From a bacterium (GTDB lineage Bacteria > UBP7 > UBA6624), in assembly GCA_002716355.1 (NCBI GenBank), contig PBAU01000002.1:96373-106681 (forward strand): a DNA stretch of 10,309 nt. Reading direction: 5' to 3'. Positions 1 through 6,576 of this stretch are shown piece by piece. The notes under the pieces are model-generated. The model saw only the letters and a program-made list of their open reading frames with translations. It did not search any database and was not told the origin of the DNA. Both the position numbers and the translations under genes were made by a program. Positions within the stretch are counted from its first letter, which is position 1. Every line of letters starts with the position of its first letter.

Positions 1-464
1 TCTGGATAGACTGATGCAAAGCCAGCTCCCCAGATCAGATGGTGTATTTCTTCTTGGGAGGCGTCTCTTTGGTTTGGGTTGTTTGTCTCCTCCGCATAAA
101 GATCCTGGATAAAGAATCCACCTTTTTCGATTTCTGCAAAATTCTTTATCATGAAGATTTCCGAAAAGCCCATTTCGCTCATAAGCAAAGTGGCCTTGTT
201 GCCTTTGAGCTCTTCAAGCACTGCAGGATTGTCCACCACACCATCCTGGTTGTTGTCAATCCATTGGGCTGCAACATTTGCCGCATGGGCAATCTTCTCT
301 TGCGGAACCATTGATGTTCCGCATATCAGGACGCTTTCAAAGACCACAGCTCCCTTATCGAAAATCTTGGTCGGACATTGTTGAAGATGGCCGTCTTGGG
401 CCTTGAATTCATCACTGCATGAGGATATGAGGAAAGCAATAATGAATACCCCGTATATCCTCAT
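1..464 (-). CDS. Secreted lipoprotein, N-terminal part (cut by window edge)
   Basis: The reading frame stays open from the ATG at 464 to the left edge, giving 154 residues of a longer protein. Residues 1-16 form a lipoprotein signal peptide ending in an LISSC lipobox (Cys16), so it should be lipid-anchored outside the inner membrane. Residues 70-78 (DNNQDGVVD) resemble a calcium-binding EF-hand-type loop. Residues 139-142 read EIHH in the context QEEIHHLIWGAGFA, an acidic/His pair that could bind metal, but the rest of any site lies outside the window. It starts 43 bases after the HAF lipoprotein stop on the same strand, so the two are probably co-transcribed. There is no clear Shine-Dalgarno site. 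I do not recognise a characterised family; I recall similar uncharacterised secreted proteins with an EEVLHLI-like motif, but cannot verify this. Confidence 0.8.
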   Translation of the reverse strand, partial: MRIYGVFIIAFLISSCSDEFKAQDGHLQQCPTKIFDKGAVVFESVLICGTSMVPQEKIAHAANVAAQWIDNNQDGVVDNPAVLEELKGNKATLLMSEMGFSEIFMIKNFAEIEKGGFFIQDLYAEETNNPNQRDASQEEIHHLIWGAGFASVYP

Positions 465-507
465 TTAAGCACCAAATTTTTTGCCTGCTAAAAGAGCTGA
501 ACTATTT

Positions 508-1548
508 TTACTTAAGACCAGCGGCATTTCCTTCAGAAAAAGTTGCGCCTGCAAGTGTGATGGAGTTAATTCCATCTGCCGCTGTCCACCAAAACACATG
601 CTCTTCAGTACCGTCATCGCTGTTACCAACAATCATCCCATTGTTGCTTATGGCAAATGGATATGAAGCTTCATGCCCTGGGAGAGTTGGAAGCAGGTTG
701 TAATAACCGATCGTAATCGGATCCCAATACCATCCAAAAACACCGGTACCACTGTTTGAGTTTCCAACAATTGTGCCAGCATCATTAATAGCTAAAGCCC
801 TTGAGTCATTCCCATTTAGCGGAAAATCAATATCGACCGCTCCGGTAGTAGCGTTTTGCCAGTACCATCCAACGGTGAGATTGCCGAAAGCACCTCCTCC
901 ATCCCCATAGCCGACAATCGTACCTTGGTTATTGATATCTTTAGCCATTGCCCAGGTTGCTAACGGGAGTTTGTCGATAACAGTCGTTGTCGGATTCGAG
1001 GCAGCAGTGTCATAATACCAGGAATCATATGGCCCAGTACCGCTCCACCCGACGATGACCCCATAATCGTTGACCCCTTCTGCTTGACTCCAGAACTGTC
1101 CAGCAGCATGCGGGATTATGACAAATCCAGCTGATGGGTTTGATATTTCATAATACCAAGGAATCAACCCTTGTGACGTATACCCCACAATCATTCCATT
1201 TTCATTGATGTCAACAGCCCAAGTGTCTCTCCAGCCATCCACCTGTCCGACATTGGTCCAACCAGTGCCTTCTTCCCAATAGGCAAGGCTGAAGTCATCA
1301 CCGGAGACGGTGTTGAATTCGGCTCCGACAATGATCCCATTTTCATTGGCTGCTTTGGCAATATATGATGTTCCGATATCCACAGCGCCTTCAGTTGGAG
1401 TCCAATAGAAAGCGTACTGCCCCGGATTCTGGTCATAGTTAGCCTGGCCAACAACCATATTCTCTTGTGAAACCGGAGTTGGTCCCCCTCCACCTCCACA
1501 AGACACAAAAAACAAGACCAATCCAAAAGTCATCAATAATTTTTTCAT
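508..1548 (-). CDS. HAF-repeat lipoprotein, seven repeats
   Basis: A 346-aa lipoprotein: the signal peptide ends at FVSC (Cys17), followed by a Gly-rich linker. The rest is built from a repeat of 41-49 residues whose core is (I/V)N-x-x-G-x-IVG, as in the extracellular HAF repeat family. The IVG-type core ends near residues 34 (variant MVVG), 75, 122, 167, 213, 262 and 308. An aromatic cluster (FYW, AYW, WYY, WYY, WYW, WYW, FWW) occurs once per repeat near 47, 90, 131, 177, 228, 273 and 319. Seven copies filling the whole mature protein fit a seven-bladed beta-propeller-like fold (inference). No catalytic residues are recognisable; a binding or surface role is likely. The ATG at 1548 is preceded by a G6 run 7 bases upstream that could act as a wobble Shine-Dalgarno site. 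Confidence 0.88.
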   Translation of the reverse strand: MKKLLMTFGLVLFFVSCGGGGGPTPVSQENMVVGQANYDQNPGQYAFYWTPTEGAVDIGTSYIAKAANENGIIVGAEFNTVSGDDFSLAYWEEGTGWTNVGQVDGWRDTWAVDINENGMIVGYTSQGLIPWYYEISNPSAGFVIIPHAAGQFWSQAEGVNDYGVIVGWSGTGPYDSWYYDTAASNPTTTVIDKLPLATWAMAKDINNQGTIVGYGDGGGAFGNLTVGWYWQNATTGAVDIDFPLNGNDSRALAINDAGTIVGNSNSGTGVFGWYWDPITIGYYNLLPTLPGHEASYPFAISNNGMIVGNSDDGTEEHVFWWTAADGINSITLAGATFSEGNAAGLK

Positions 1549-1573
1549 AAAAATACCCCCCTAGTTAAAAAAC

Positions 1574-1579
1574 ATTATA
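1574..1579 (-). promoter_or_regulatory. -10 box for the HAF lipoprotein gene
   Basis: The minus strand reads TATAAT, 25 bases before the ATG at 1548. No good -35 box is seen at 16-18 bp; that position falls in the G/C-run of the adjoining repeat. The promoter is divergent from that of the C13 peptidase gene. Confidence 0.45.
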
Positions 1580-1580
1580 C

Positions 1581-1768
1581 ATAAAGGGGGGATTATAGGG
1601 GGGTATATATAAAGGTTAAAGGAGGATTCCAAAGGAGGACTAGGAAAAGCATGCATGCCGGATGCCCATCCCTTTCTCGCACGCATTATGTGCGCACATG
1701 CGCATCGCGCATCTAAAGGGGGGAGACTATAGAGGGGGGATTAGAAAGGGATGGTATGGAAGGGGGAA
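1581..1768 (+). repeat. G-rich dispersed repeat, copy A
   Basis: A repeat of about 190 bp, matched by the reverse complement of 5668-5861. From 1621 to 1768 the two copies differ by about ten substitutions and one single-base indel (counted by eye); the first 40 bases are less alike. Layout: a left module ATAAAGGGGGG...GGGGGG (1581-1604), a stretch with AAAGGAGGA twice (from 1618 and 1631), a GC-rich palindromic core holding GCATGCATGC (1649-1658), ATGTGCGCACAT (1688-1699) and the hairpin ATGCGC-ATC-GCGCAT (1698-1712), then a second G6-N-G6 module (1713-1743) and a purine-rich tail. All G runs are on the plus strand, the sense strand of the following C13 peptidase gene. No transposase or target-site duplication is visible. 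Confidence 0.9.
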
Positions 1769-1774
1769 GGGTAG

Positions 1775-1780
1775 TATAAT
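1775..1780 (+). promoter_or_regulatory. -10 box for the C13 peptidase gene
   Basis: A perfect TATAAT begins 7 bases after the end of repeat copy A and ends 11 bases before the TTG start at 1792. Transcription would begin only a few bases before the start codon, implying a leaderless or nearly leaderless mRNA. The -35 position lies inside the purine-rich tail of the repeat and does not match consensus. Confidence 0.55.
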
Positions 1781-1791
1781 TTGACTCGAAA

Positions 1792-2706
1792 TTGAGATAC
1801 CTTTCTTTGCTTTTGGCTTTTTTCCTATGTGCTGCTGCGCCTAGCAAGGTCAACCCGTCAAGAGGTCCGTCCCAGGCAAGAAAGGACTATTCAGCAGTTC
1901 AATCGTTAGTCAGGAAATCGCTGAATTCTGAAATTGCAAATGAGAATCCAGGTGAAATTGATCTTTTTTTCCTAGGTATTGCTCTTTACGGTGACCAGGA
2001 TGTGTTCATGAGGGAAACACTCTATGCTCACAACCTCTTTGAAGACAGGTATCACGACCTGTACGGATCCGGAAAAAAATCTTTTGGCTTATCGCTGGTC
2101 AACAACATCAAGACAGCAAACAGGTATCTTTTCGCAACCAAGGAGAATATTGCTGAAATTTTGAAGCTCTTGGGCAAGAAAATGGGTGAAGAGGATATTC
2201 TGTTCATCTATTTCACATCGCATGGCTCAAGAAGTCACAAATTGTCGATGACATTGCCGAGACAGTTCAGAAACAATTTGGATTCAGAAGAAATAAGAAC
2301 AATGCTTGACGATGCGGATATACCCTGGCGCATGCTTATTGTTTCTGCATGTTTTTCTGGCGGATTCATCCCAGGATTGGAGTCACCAAAGACTCTTGTT
2401 GCTACAGCTGCAGATCCAAACCACAGTTCTTTTGGCTGCACAGACACCAGAAATTTTACCTATTACGGAGAAGCTTTGTTCAAAAGACAGTTGAACGAAG
2501 GTACAGGCTTGCTTGATTCCCTTTACAGGATGCCCCCGATCATCAAGGTGATGGAGGATGAGCAGGGTTATAAAAATTCCAATCCACAAATGGTGATTGG
2601 GGATGATTTTTTGGAGCATTGGCAAAAATATCAAGACGATTTAAGGGAAAGATTGACATATCGCAAGGAAGAAAGGCCCAAAAGACCGCCTAAAAGAGGC
2701 TGGTAG
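1792..2706 (+). CDS. Secreted caspase-clan cysteine peptidase, C13 (legumain-like) family
   Basis: A 304-aa protein with an N-terminal signal sequence (about residues 1-16; Cys13 is not in a good lipobox). The C13-type catalytic core is clear: hydrophobic strand DILFIYF then TSHGS with the catalytic His144, and MLIVSACFSGGF with the catalytic Cys187. Flanking motifs known from bacterial C13 proteins are also present: PWRMLIVSAC, TLVATAADPNHSSFGC and TYYGEALF (residues 224-230). The Lys/Arg/Pro-rich tail (281-304) is probably unstructured. The family cleaves after Asn or Asp in eukaryotic legumains and GPI transamidase; bacterial substrates are not established. The start is TTG at 1792: the frame has a stop at 1777-1779 and no other start before the signal peptide. 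No Shine-Dalgarno site is present. Confidence 0.88.
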   Translation: MRYLSLLLAFFLCAAAPSKVNPSRGPSQARKDYSAVQSLVRKSLNSEIANENPGEIDLFFLGIALYGDQDVFMRETLYAHNLFEDRYHDLYGSGKKSFGLSLVNNIKTANRYLFATKENIAEILKLLGKKMGEEDILFIYFTSHGSRSHKLSMTLPRQFRNNLDSEEIRTMLDDADIPWRMLIVSACFSGGFIPGLESPKTLVATAADPNHSSFGCTDTRNFTYYGEALFKRQLNEGTGLLDSLYRMPPIIKVMEDEQGYKNSNPQMVIGDDFLEHWQKYQDDLRERLTYRKEERPKRPPKRGW

Positions 2707-2753
2707 TAAAAATTTAACTAGAATAGTACAAATCATTACACAAGGAGATACAC

Positions 2754-2963
2754 ATGGCAGACAGAGTAAAAGGCACTGTAAAGTGGTTTAACGAAAAGAA
2801 AGGCTTCGGCTTCATATCAAGAGAAGACGGAGGCGATGTTTTTGTTCATTTTTCCGACATTCAAAGCGATGGCTTCAGAACATTAGCTGAAAACCAAGCA
2901 GTTGAATTCGAAATAACAACAGATGACAAAGGCGAAAGAGCTACTAACGTTTCAACAGCTTAA
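2754..2963 (+). CDS. Cold-shock domain protein, CspA family
   Basis: A 69-aa single cold-shock domain, the usual family length. Residues KGFGFI (RNP1) and VFVHF (RNP2) carry the aromatic residues that stack on single-stranded RNA or DNA, with the typical start [12 protein letters not shown]. It should act in the cytoplasm as a nucleic-acid chaperone. A strong Shine-Dalgarno AAGGAG lies 7 bases before the ATG, unlike the SD-less upstream gene. The gap to the C13 peptidase stop is 47 bases, so co-transcription is possible, though a TAGAAT at 2719-2724 may be its own -10 box. The stop codon overlaps the xylB stop codon from the other strand. The sequence does not show whether it is cold-induced. 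Confidence 0.97.
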
Positions 2964-4213
2964 CTATTTGGTTTAACAATTTCCTTAATTGATTTATCTT
3001 GGTTGTTTTTGCAGCCATTCACCATTGAAGCTTGAATTGCAGCCCCTAGGGAAGCTGTGTCAAATTCAGATAGTACCGAAATATCGGAATTGAACGTATT
3101 GGCAATCGTTTGAACCCACAGTTTGTTTTTGGCACCGCCACCAACCACTCTTATTTCTTTTGCACCGCCGCAAGCATTGCGAATTTTGTCATATCCTCTT
3201 TTCAGAGACCTTGTGATGTTTAGGATTTTGTTCAAATAAATCTTACCTTCTTTTTGATTTGGATTCTGAGATGAAATTTTGGCCAAATCCTCATGGTTTA
3301 AACCAAAACGATCAGTCAGTGCATCTAGCTCTAGTGCACAATCGTTTAGGCAAAAAAGAGGCAGCCAACCACCTATGGCATCACAAAAAGCAGAAATTTC
3401 CGGATCTGATTGCTGGATACACTTTTCACTATGACAAAAAACCGTACCACTAGTTCCAAGACTGATTGCCAATGTGCCACTTTGCAAAATCCCTGAACCC
3501 AGTGCGCTCATCATGTTATCGCCACTGCCTGGAGACACTATGGTTTGTTTACTGATTCCAAATAGTTCTGAGATTTCCCTTGTGATGCTGCCTATGGGCT
3601 TGAATTGATCAACCAGCTTAGGAATCGAGCCCTCCAGATCATCATCTATTGCCATCATTGTTTTTTTATCAAAATTTCGATTTTCAATATCAAAAAAACC
3701 AGTACCACTTGCATCACCAGCCTCCATAACTTTCTGGCCAGTGAGATAAAAATTAATGTAATCATGTGGCAGTAAAACAGTATCAAGTCGCTTGAAACTG
3801 TCCGGTTCTTTTCTTTTCATCCATAATATCTTGCTTGCGGTATAGCGAACAGAAATTTCTTTTCCAGCTATGTTGGAAAGGTCTTCCGCCTCATTGTGCG
3901 TTTCTGTATCGCACCATAATTTTGCAGGCCTTATGACTATGTTTTTTTTGTCCAAAGCCACGAAACCGTGCTGTTGCCCGGAAACCCCAATGCCTTTTAT
4001 TTTTTGCCTATCTGTGATGTTCTTGAGCGCTTTCGCAAGTGATTTGTTGACAGCTTCAATCCATACAGATGGATGCTGTTCTGCCTTGCCATTTTCATCT
4101 ACATCCAAGCCATAAGAATGATGTCCCCTGCTTACGACAGTCTGAATCTCAGCATCCCAAATAAGAGCTTTGGTGCTTTGTGTTCCGACATCCAGACCGA
4201 TATATAAAGACAC
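2960..4213 (-). CDS. xylB: Xylulokinase, internally shortened
   Basis: A FGGY-family sugar kinase that phosphorylates D-xylulose to xylulose 5-phosphate in the cytoplasm. Seen: N-terminal ATPase motif [15 protein letters not shown] (6-20), sugar-site QQHG (80-83), LWCDTET (99-105), the catalytic base Asp232 in PGSGDN, second phosphate motif SLGTSGTVF (251-259) and the adenosine motif [11 protein letters not shown] (356-366). It has 417 residues against about 480-500 in typical XylB. The block with the conserved GERTP motif, expected between KEGKIYL (321-327) and [15 protein letters not shown] (331-345), is absent, a loss of about 40 residues without frameshift; the C-terminus is also short. 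Activity is therefore uncertain. The start is GTG, 2 bases after the xylA stop, so translation is probably coupled. Confidence 0.92.
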
Positions 4214-4215
4214 GA

Positions 4216-5418
4216 TTATCTAGTGCCCATGATGTGCTCAACTGCGATTTGGTCAAGCTTTTCATATTGCAACCCTGCTTTAGACAGTTTTTCTGGGTTT
4301 GCATTCATGCTCCGGATTGCTTCAGCATTTTCTTTAGAGTAAGAAAGAATTCCACTTAGGTTGTTTGAATCGCTATGATTCTTGAGAAGAATCTCTTTTA
4401 CTTCGGGGTCATTATTGAATGAATTTGCTTTTTCGGCAAGCATTTTGTAAGTCCTCATGCAACCTTTTGCAAAATCCCAAACGCCTTCTTGGCTTTCTGT
4501 GCGATAGGCATGTGCATCAAAATGTTTTGGGCCATCATATTTTGGATATCCACCACAGCCTTCAAGCAAGCGTACCAAAAAGAAGGCACCCTTGATGTCT
4601 TCGCTGCCAAACCGCAAATCTTGATCGTATCTTCCTATCTTTTGTGCGTTGAGGTCAATATGGAAAAGCTTGCTTGCCTCCATTGCTTGTGCAACAGCAA
4701 AAACCATTGAAAGTCCAGTCATGTTTTCATGGGCAACTTCCGGATTGACACCACACATTTCGGGTTTGTCTAGGGTCGATATGAAATGAAGCATTGACCC
4801 TGTGGTTGGATAGTAAATATCTCCCCTAGGCTCATTCGGCTTGGCTTCAAGTGCAAATTTTAGATTCCAGCCTTGGTCGTTTACCCAGTGACTTAAAAAA
4901 TTGATTGCATCTCGATACCAGCCAATCGCATCCCTTGGATCCTTGCCAGAATCCGTTTCTGCACCTTCTCTACCCCCCCAAAAAACAATTGTTTCAGCTC
5001 CCAGTTCAACACCCATGCTGATTGATTGCATCGATTTTTGTAACGCAAATGCTCTGATTTCTGGATTGCTAGATGTGAATGCTCCATCTTTGAATACGGG
5101 ATGATGAAATAGGTTTGTGGTTGCCATGGGAACCTTCAATCCGGTTTCCTTCAGGGCTTCCTTGAATTTTCCGACAACTGCTTGTTTTTCTTTTTGGCTG
5201 CATCCAAAAGGGATTAGGTCATTGTCATGCAGGTTTACGCCATAAGCGCCACACTCGGCAAGTCCGTGAACTATTTGGACAGGATTAATTTTTTCCCTTG
5301 TAGGCAGTCCAAAAGGGTCTCCACCAGGGTTGCCGACTGTCCACAAGCCAAATGTGAACTTGTCATTTTTTTCAGGTTGGTACATTTCATTCATTGGGTA
5401 TAGATTGTATGTGCGCAT
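4216..5418 (-). CDS. xylA: Xylose isomerase, actinobacterial (class I) type
   Basis: Converts D-xylose to D-xylulose in the cytoplasm with two divalent metal ions. The family residues are in place: His64 and Asp67 in VNLHDND, FWGGREG (146-152), metal ligands Glu191 and Lys193 in LEAKPNEPRGD, Glu227 and His230 in NPEVAHENM, Asp255 in IDLNAQ, Asp265 and Asp267 in DQDLRFG, and Asp301 in FDAHAYRTE. The length of 400 fits the short class (about 390). The coordinates use the outermost ATG, but the family start aligns with the ATG at 5394 or 5385 (MNEMYQP or MYQP before FTFGLWTVG). The outermost ATG lies inside a long inverted repeat and has no Shine-Dalgarno site, so a start at 5394 or 5385 is more likely. 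It lies between a small membrane protein gene and xylB. Confidence 0.96.
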   Translation of the reverse strand: MRTYNLYPMNEMYQPEKNDKFTFGLWTVGNPGGDPFGLPTREKINPVQIVHGLAECGAYGVNLHDNDLIPFGCSQKEKQAVVGKFKEALKETGLKVPMATTNLFHHPVFKDGAFTSSNPEIRAFALQKSMQSISMGVELGAETIVFWGGREGAETDSGKDPRDAIGWYRDAINFLSHWVNDQGWNLKFALEAKPNEPRGDIYYPTTGSMLHFISTLDKPEMCGVNPEVAHENMTGLSMVFAVAQAMEASKLFHIDLNAQKIGRYDQDLRFGSEDIKGAFFLVRLLEGCGGYPKYDGPKHFDAHAYRTESQEGVWDFAKGCMRTYKMLAEKANSFNNDPEVKEILLKNHSDSNNLSGILSYSKENAEAIRSMNANPEKLSKAGLQYEKLDQIAVEHIMGTR

Positions 5419-5442
5419 ATGGCTAAAACCATCATGCGCACA
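5410..5442. promoter_or_regulatory. 33-bp inverted repeat at the xylA start
   Basis: On the plus strand TGTGCGCAT-ATGG, a 6-base loop CTAAAA, then CCAT-C-ATGCGCACA: 13 matching pairs with one bulged base. It covers the first possible xylA ATG and lies just upstream of a TACAAT (minus strand, 5404-5409) that sits 9 bases before the better xylA start at 5394. It could be an operator for a sugar-responsive repressor, or an mRNA hairpin between the small ORF and xylA. It shares TGTGCGCA/TGCGCACA with the palindromic core of repeat copy A. Confidence 0.6.
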
Positions 5443-5449
5443 ATACTCT

Positions 5450-5617
5450 TTACTTAGAGGATCTTTGGGCTCTGGACATTAAACCCATAGCAAAAAGGGT
5501 CCATGCCAAGAAAGGCTCCACGGCATCATTCCAGGTCCAACTGTTGTTTACGGCTTCCATTCCAAGCATCCATCCGATGCCCGCCCAAACACAAAACCAA
5601 TCAAGATCAATCTTCAT
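5450..5617 (-). CDS. Small hydrophobic protein, 55 aa, first gene of the xyl operon
   Basis: ATG at 5617 to TAA at 5450-5452. A textbook Shine-Dalgarno, AAGGAGGTG, has its GGAGG core 7 bases before the ATG, the strongest in the window. The product has two hydrophobic stretches, about residues 6-23 (DWFCVWAGIGWMLGMEAV) and 34-48 (EPFLAWTLFAMGLMS), joined by a polar Asn/Asp/Trp segment and ending in a basic tail (RAQRSSK). This fits a small two-helix inner-membrane protein. It ends 31 bases before the outermost xylA ATG on the same strand. I do not recognise a family. The Shine-Dalgarno site, placement and membrane-like composition argue that it is real; a translation-coupling or leader role is an alternative. 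Confidence 0.72.
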   Translation of the reverse strand: MKIDLDWFCVWAGIGWMLGMEAVNNSWTWNDAVEPFLAWTLFAMGLMSRAQRSSK

Positions 5618-5653
5618 AATCGCACCTCCTTAAACATATATACCTTGAAATCT

Positions 5654-5659
5654 ATCATA
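5654..5659 (-). promoter_or_regulatory. Candidate -10 box for the small-ORF-xylA-xylB operon
   Basis: The minus strand reads TATGAT, 36 bases before the small-ORF ATG and 8 bases beyond the end of repeat copy B. At 17-bp spacing, CTGGAA (minus strand of 5677-5682) in the repeat tail is a weak -35 match. The position mirrors the TATAAT next to copy A. Confidence 0.35.
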
Positions 5660-5667
5660 AAGTTGCT

Positions 5668-5861
5668 CTTTCCCCCTTCCAGACCATCCCTTTCCAATCC
5701 CCCCTCTATATCTCCCCCCTTTAGATGCGCAATGTGCATGTGCGCGCATAATGTGTGCGAGAAGGGGATGGGGATCCGGCATGCATGCTTTTCCTAGTCC
5801 TCCTTTGGAATCCTCCTCTCACCTTTAATTTAATCCCCCCTCTATATCTCCCCCCTTTATA
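5668..5861 (-). repeat. G-rich dispersed repeat, copy B (inverted relative to copy A)
   Basis: The reverse complement of this stretch matches 1581-1768. Here the two internal modules are nearly identical to each other: TAAAGGGGGGAGATATAGAG plus a further G-run and ATT, at 5831-5861 and 5696-5724, bracketing the core. The core keeps GCATGCATGC, while the hairpin of copy A is weakened to ATGCAC-ATT-GCGCAT (one mismatch). The G runs are on the minus strand, the sense strand of the small-ORF-xylA-xylB operon. Of the 308-base gap between 5617 and 5926, this repeat fills most. The remaining 5862-5925 is AT-rich and leads into the Shine-Dalgarno of the zinc peptidase gene; I see no strong promoter there beyond a TAGAAT at 5901-5906. 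Confidence 0.9.
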
Positions 5862-5925
5862 TTGGAAACGCTGCATAAAATAATAGCCTAAATATTTTTG
5901 TAGAATAGGGCTTGGAGGTTTTGTT

Positions 5926-6576
5926 ATGTTTTTATGGTTGATAATTTTCATGATCATTTCATCAGTGGTGCAGAATTCAGTGAGGAAATCCATGGATCGT
6001 GGCCACAGGATTCCCGAAGGCACAGGGATGACTGGAGCGCAGGCTGCAGAGGCTGTTCTTGAAAAGAAAGGCGTTTCTGGAATTGTTGTTGAGGAGGGCC
6101 GCTTTGACCATTATGACCCTAGGGAAAAGGCGATACGCCTGAGCCCGGAGAACTTCAGGAACTCCAGCGTCACTGCAGTTGCAGTCGCATTGCATGAGGC
6201 AGGACATGCACTGCAGCATGCCGAGGAAAGCGCTTCACTGAAAGTCAGGACAGCCTTTGTACCGGTTGCAAGCCTTGGAAGCTCAATGGCTGGGCCACTT
6301 CTGCTTTTCGGGATCTTCACTGGTGCCATGAACCTTGTCTGGCTTGGGATCATTGGTTTTGCGTTTGCGGTTGTTTTCCACATTGTGACATTGCCTGTCG
6401 AGTTTGACGCTTCCAACAGGGCGTTGACCATGGCTGAGGGTTACGGTTTCCTTAAATCTCCTGAGGAGATGAGGGCAGGGCGCAAGGTTCTGGGTTCAGC
6501 GGCATTGACATATGTTGTTGCGGCATTGATAGCACTTGTTCAGTTGATCCATTGGATTGGGATAGCCAGGCGATAA
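5926..6576 (+). CDS. YugP-type membrane zinc metallopeptidase
   Basis: A 216-aa integral membrane protein of the neutral zinc peptidase family typified by Bacillus YugP. Residues 1-14 are a hydrophobic N-terminal helix. The active site is HEAGH (His90, Glu91, His94) in AVALHEAGHALQH, and LPVEFDAS supplies the probable third metal ligand Glu159. Hydrophobic segments lie at about 111-131, 135-156 and 189-212. Typical family motifs GMTGAQAAEAVLEKKG and HYDPREKAIRLSPENF precede the zinc site. It probably cleaves membrane or membrane-associated proteins; the substrate is unknown. GGAGG 9 bases before the ATG supports the start. It runs away from repeat copy B, and by eye it is richer in G than the xyl genes. 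It converges with the MerR-like gene. Confidence 0.93.
   Translation: MFLWLIIFMIISSVVQNSVRKSMDRGHRIPEGTGMTGAQAAEAVLEKKGVSGIVVEEGRFDHYDPREKAIRLSPENFRNSSVTAVAVALHEAGHALQHAEESASLKVRTAFVPVASLGSSMAGPLLLFGIFTGAMNLVWLGIIGFAFAVVFHIVTLPVEFDASNRALTMAEGYGFLKSPEEMRAGRKVLGSAALTYVVAALIALVQLIHWIGIARR

Follow-up and report, generated by a model that had tools for sequence, protein, structure and literature searches.

An inverted pair of intergenic repeats in divergent gene gaps of a UBP7 bacterium, a candidate control module

The repeat pair and its gene neighborhood

The window analyzed here, a stretch of 10,309 nt, is C2:96373-106681 (contig:positions) of a UBP7 genome of 1.26 Mb in 16 contigs; to our knowledge this phylum has no cultured member. 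Two copies of a repeat (L and R) bracket a segment with a C13 peptidase gene, a cold-shock protein gene (csp) and xylB- and xylA-like genes. The same-genus genome used for comparison (the sister) is, to judge from its sequence, UBP7 isolate UBA7824. The features are as follows.

508-1548, minus strand, DUF3466 lipoprotein gene, 33 nt from the outer end of L; the sister lacks it at the corresponding place
1581-1768, plus strand, repeat copy L, between the lipoprotein gene (minus) and the C13 peptidase gene (plus)
1586-1603, plus strand, L outer G-tract pair, GGGGGGATTATAGGGGGG
1592-1619, minus strand, outward sigma70-like promoter TTAACC-16-TATAAT (a consensus match only), directed toward the lipoprotein gene
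1677-1712, plus strand, L core, two adjacent 6-bp hairpins and a 19-nt alternating purine-pyrimidine tract (1687-1705)
1718-1739, plus strand, L inner G-tract pair, GGGGGGAGACTATAGAGGGGGG
1775-1780, plus strand, TATAAT -10-like box (TAGTATAAT) before the C13 gene, just inward of the inner edge of the repeat; kept in the sister
1792-2706, plus strand, C13 peptidase gene
2754-2963, plus strand, csp
2960-4213, minus strand, xylB-like FGGY kinase gene
4216-5418, minus strand, xylA-like sugar isomerase gene
5450-5617, minus strand, 55-aa ORF between xylA and R
5668-5861, minus strand, repeat copy R, between the xyl unit (minus) and the Zn peptidase gene (plus)
5699-5719, minus strand, R inner G-tract pair, GGGGGGAGATATAGAGGGGGG
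5835-5855, minus strand, R outer G-tract pair, GGGGGGAGATATAGAGGGGGG
5926-6576, plus strand, Zn_peptidase_2 gene, outside R

A preliminary description of this DNA had claimed an inverted pair of about 190 bp around C13-csp-xylB-xylA, and the pair is real: L and R are 89.6% identical over 192 nt (pairwise BLAST, E 2e-68), a similarity far above chance expectation. When positions 5660-5870 were used as a BLAST query against their own genome, the L copy was matched at 90% over query positions 11-201 (E 6e-67), and a repeat search of the window gave inverted arms at 1598-1726/5711-5839 (129 nt, 90%) and a second arm pair at 1716-1768/5670-5722 (53 nt, 87%).

Each full copy consists of two diverged units, which accounts for a 31-nt direct repeat, 136 nt apart, within R. 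Each unit opens with a TATA-like core set between two G6 tracts (6-10 nt apart) and continues with purine-rich sequence; GGGATGG..TGGAAGGG or near variants are common to the inner units and the longer outer units. These G-tract units are atypical of a genome with 36% GC, and when all 60-nt windows of the genome are ranked by a G4Hunter-type score, the four repeat copies take the first four places. Folded as DNA, the core between the units has a z score of -3.0 in L and -4.0 in the L of the sister, and a weaker one in R. Folded as RNA, the repeat did no better than shuffled sequences, and a structured RNA was set aside on this ground together with the lack of any gathering-level Rfam match in the window. 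The idea that the repeat as a whole came from a plasmid or phage was also rejected, as matches were no longer than about 33 nt.

Two of the bracketed ORFs deserve a remark in their own right. The protein product of the 55-aa ORF does not differ between the two species (the DNA is 97% identical), and a Pfam search with it gave no match. The xylA-like gene has no match in the other UBP7 genus, and the closest named relatives that it has beyond the phylum are from Planctomycetota (67%), which suggests that the gene was acquired.

Copies, conservation and exchange between the arms

The genome was scanned piecewise with a profile built from four full copies, L and R here and their counterparts in the sister. 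Only L and R are full-length in the 1.26 Mb, accompanied by two half copies. The first (C2:95982-96078) lies about 300 bp left of the window, and a third lipoprotein gene starts about 44 nt away from it; the second (C9:30891-30996) is degenerate, a weak match (E 0.06) located in the gap that separates the 3' end of an mqnC-like gene from the start of an hflK-like one. UBA7824 carries the repeat pair around C13-csp-xylB-xylA with positions and orientation unchanged. Its XylA (contig DLTY01000003.1) is 93% identical, the segment at 338-4632 has the same gene order and orientation at 88% identity, and about 0.70 Mb of that genome, when scanned, contained its own L and R only. The C13 gene is also present in a third UBP7 genome, which has neither the repeat nor an xylA match, and the repeat was not found in the other bacteria sampled. 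The search of the source genome and its relatives that the preliminary description had proposed thus found copies in both; its suggestion that an absence of other copies and of relatives with the repeat would indicate a single local duplication does not apply, since UBA7824 has the pair. With so few copies and the same pair in UBA7824, a high-copy MITE and a fresh local duplication can both be set aside.

The comparison between species, which covers two genomes of which the sister is incomplete (62%), indicates that the arms exchange sequence. The two arms of the sister are identical to each other over their inner 105 nt, yet farther out they agree at only 55 of 82 positions; such a mosaic is the product to be expected from gene conversion or recombination between arms, and by itself is no proof of inversion. 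The most similar pair of repeats is L here and R of the sister (97% over 195 nt), and conservation of the repeats between the species (81% and 89%) is not above that of nearby coding DNA.

The genes outside the arms also differ. The DUF3466 lipoprotein gene adjoins L here, the SCSDEF lipoprotein gene directly faces L in the sister, and a different lipoprotein gene lies outside the R of the sister. As a separate observation, the SCSDEF lipoprotein (window positions 1-464) has a different signal peptide in each species and is otherwise alike; the similarity stops right at the signal peptide, as if the 5' end had been swapped.

Divergent position, promoter-like signals and competing explanations

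All four full copies in the two species sit between divergently transcribed genes. Here the outer side of every copy or half copy is occupied by an envelope-type gene (lipoproteins or membrane peptidase in three cases, hflK in the other), and the outer-side genes of the sister copies are two lipoproteins; this pattern was spotted post hoc. The outward promoter-like match in L agrees with the consensus at 10 of 12 positions; chance alone would give 0.5 such matches over the same stretch. When the outer pair of L is read on its C-rich strand, it is CCCCCC-TATAAT-CCCCCC, preceded by TTAACC at a spacing of 16 nt; R lacks an outward TATAAT and has TATATC there. The preliminary description had both copies facing inward and ending just before the first -10 box of each gene set. 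The G-rich strand agrees with the former statement, while the sigma70-like promoter that scores best around L points outward; the latter holds on the C13 side, where TAGTATAAT is conserved in the sister, and fails on the xyl side, where the -10-like TATGAT at about 5650 is not kept.

Taken together, the divergent gaps, the outward TTAACC-TATAAT, the conserved inward TAGTATAAT and the G4Hunter rank favor a divergent control module. We would give about an even chance to the repeat being a low-copy, lineage-specific intergenic module for divergent promotion or control, its arms kept similar by gene conversion. A full copy would occupy the gap between divergent units, with two G-tract units around a core of two small hairpins, and would probably provide both units with promoters and regulator-binding sites, acting outward on envelope genes and inward on the C13-csp and xyl units. 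Homologous exchange between arms (gene conversion) would preserve their similarity, and the inverted layout would follow from having the same module in two neighboring divergent gaps. Consensus promoter matches are weak evidence for such a module; promoter activity, regulator binding and a role for G-tract structure or a G-quadruplex are what we infer from the letters. Among the three options of the preliminary description (MITE-like element, promoter or regulator-binding module, inversion arms), the regulatory one fits best. The module resembles duplicated divergent promoter regions under gene conversion in its placement between divergent genes and its arm mosaic, and differs from them in that its activity is only predicted and in its G-tract units, which are unusual at 36% GC.

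An unlikely alternative is that the edge of the repeat is a recombination hotspot where lipoprotein genes come and go, the repeat having no regulatory role. When the two species are compared, each has a lipoprotein gene inserted exactly outside one arm, the gene and the arm not being the same in both, the half copy left of the window adjoins a third such gene, and the closest match of L is the R of the sister, all of which this reading would accommodate. It rests, however, on the same two genomes, one of them incomplete, and gain and loss alone leave the divergent-gap position and the conserved -10 boxes unexplained.

We consider it equally improbable that the repeat is left over from several insertions of a small non-autonomous element (MITE- or REP-like) that has since decayed, its promoter-like sequence being accidental. 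MITEs and REPINs are small repeats dispersed among the intergenic regions of bacteria (PMC2229807, PMC3116915), and the present repeat is similar in being short, intergenic, partly palindromic and present at more than one place (the C2 cluster and the half copy on C9). Two other bacteria have G-tract/ACTATA sequences beside C-tract hairpins, which also speaks for this origin. Unlike those families, the repeat is full-length at only two places in 1.26 Mb, which are also the places of the sister copies, and has no known mobilizing enzyme. With two full and two half copies, the profile scan revealed neither MITE-like dispersal nor the high copy number of REPIN/RAYT systems. Terminal inverted repeats were not found, as both ends carry direct G-tract units, and no target-site duplication is visible at the aligned edges of the four copies, in agreement with the preliminary description. 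That the 4.3-kb C13-xyl segment is flipped by recombination between L and R, with a swap of divergent partners, is very improbable: long inverted arms flank the segment and exchange sequence in the sister, but its orientation is identical in both genomes and no recombinase-like ORF was recognized among the ORFs read around the window.

The G-tract/TATA/G-tract motif in phages and other bacteria

The core of the units also occurs outside UBP7. A search of IMG/VR with GGGGGG-NNN-CTATA-NN-GGGGGG gave 58 matches, and the reversed core gave none. In a scan for G7 pairs (tracts exactly 6 nt apart, first and last base of the spacer non-G), 49 of 87 spacers among the matches listed were A(C/T)NATA, including 25 ACTATA and 15 ATTATA. 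The motif sites sort by flanking sequence into about 50 groups, and some matches inside open reading frames may be coding coincidences. G7-A(C/T)TATA-G7 (C7-TATAGT/TATAAT-C7 on the other strand) is a specific motif, found in dozens of unrelated phage contigs.

In one large set the motif is upstream of a gene that matches families of the terminase small subunit (terS). Packaging sites are common upstream of this gene. C6-8-TATAGT-C6-7 is present in 29 of 60 distinct regions upstream of terS relatives, mostly at a distance of 39-100 nt from the start; other C-tract forms, for example of the C6-TCCCCTACCCCT-C6 type, occur in many of the remaining regions. With about half of the distinct regions lacking the TATAGT form, a strict -10 reading of the phage motif was rejected; in these regions the hexamer is less well conserved than the C/G tracts. 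The repeat core also matches positions -6 to +3 of the T7 promoter. A T7-like phage promoter was rejected, since the single-subunit RNA polymerase family PF00940 was present in none of the three UBP7 genomes and in 1 of 37 motif-bearing phage records.

A search of 386 genomes for G6-AYTATA-G6 found it in four, of which two are UBP7. In the other two bacteria GGGGGGACTATAGGGGGG immediately follows a C-tract/G-tract hairpin, outside long ORFs, and this arrangement resembles an intergenic palindromic repeat. A literature search with the motif strings found no relevant paper, and BLAST with the motif alone gave no match, probably an effect of its low-complexity masking.

The phage C7-TATAGT-C7 element and the UBP7 repeat share a G-tract/AYTATA/G-tract core of about 20 nt; the phage element differs in its packaging-gene context, in being mostly single and in the absence of a 190-nt repeat. 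A sequence of about 20 nt is too short to tell whether the two are of common descent. We propose tentatively, as a possibility on the doubtful side, that paired G-tracts around AYTATA are an undescribed cis-element that arose or spread in phages, before terS and at other sites, as well as in UBP7 chromosomes, acting through G-tract structure and/or a C-tract-flanked -10, that was recruited in UBP7 as a divergent control module of envelope genes.

The repeat itself is ordinary in kind, a low-copy intergenic repeat of an obscure phylum whose most likely role is that of a control module, and as a lead the phage motif is more surprising. The pair provides a defined, testable candidate control module for phylum UBP7 and a case of sequence exchange between inverted intergenic copies. 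The G-tract/TATA/G-tract element of phages, which may be a signal for packaging or for the control of terS, is worth study.
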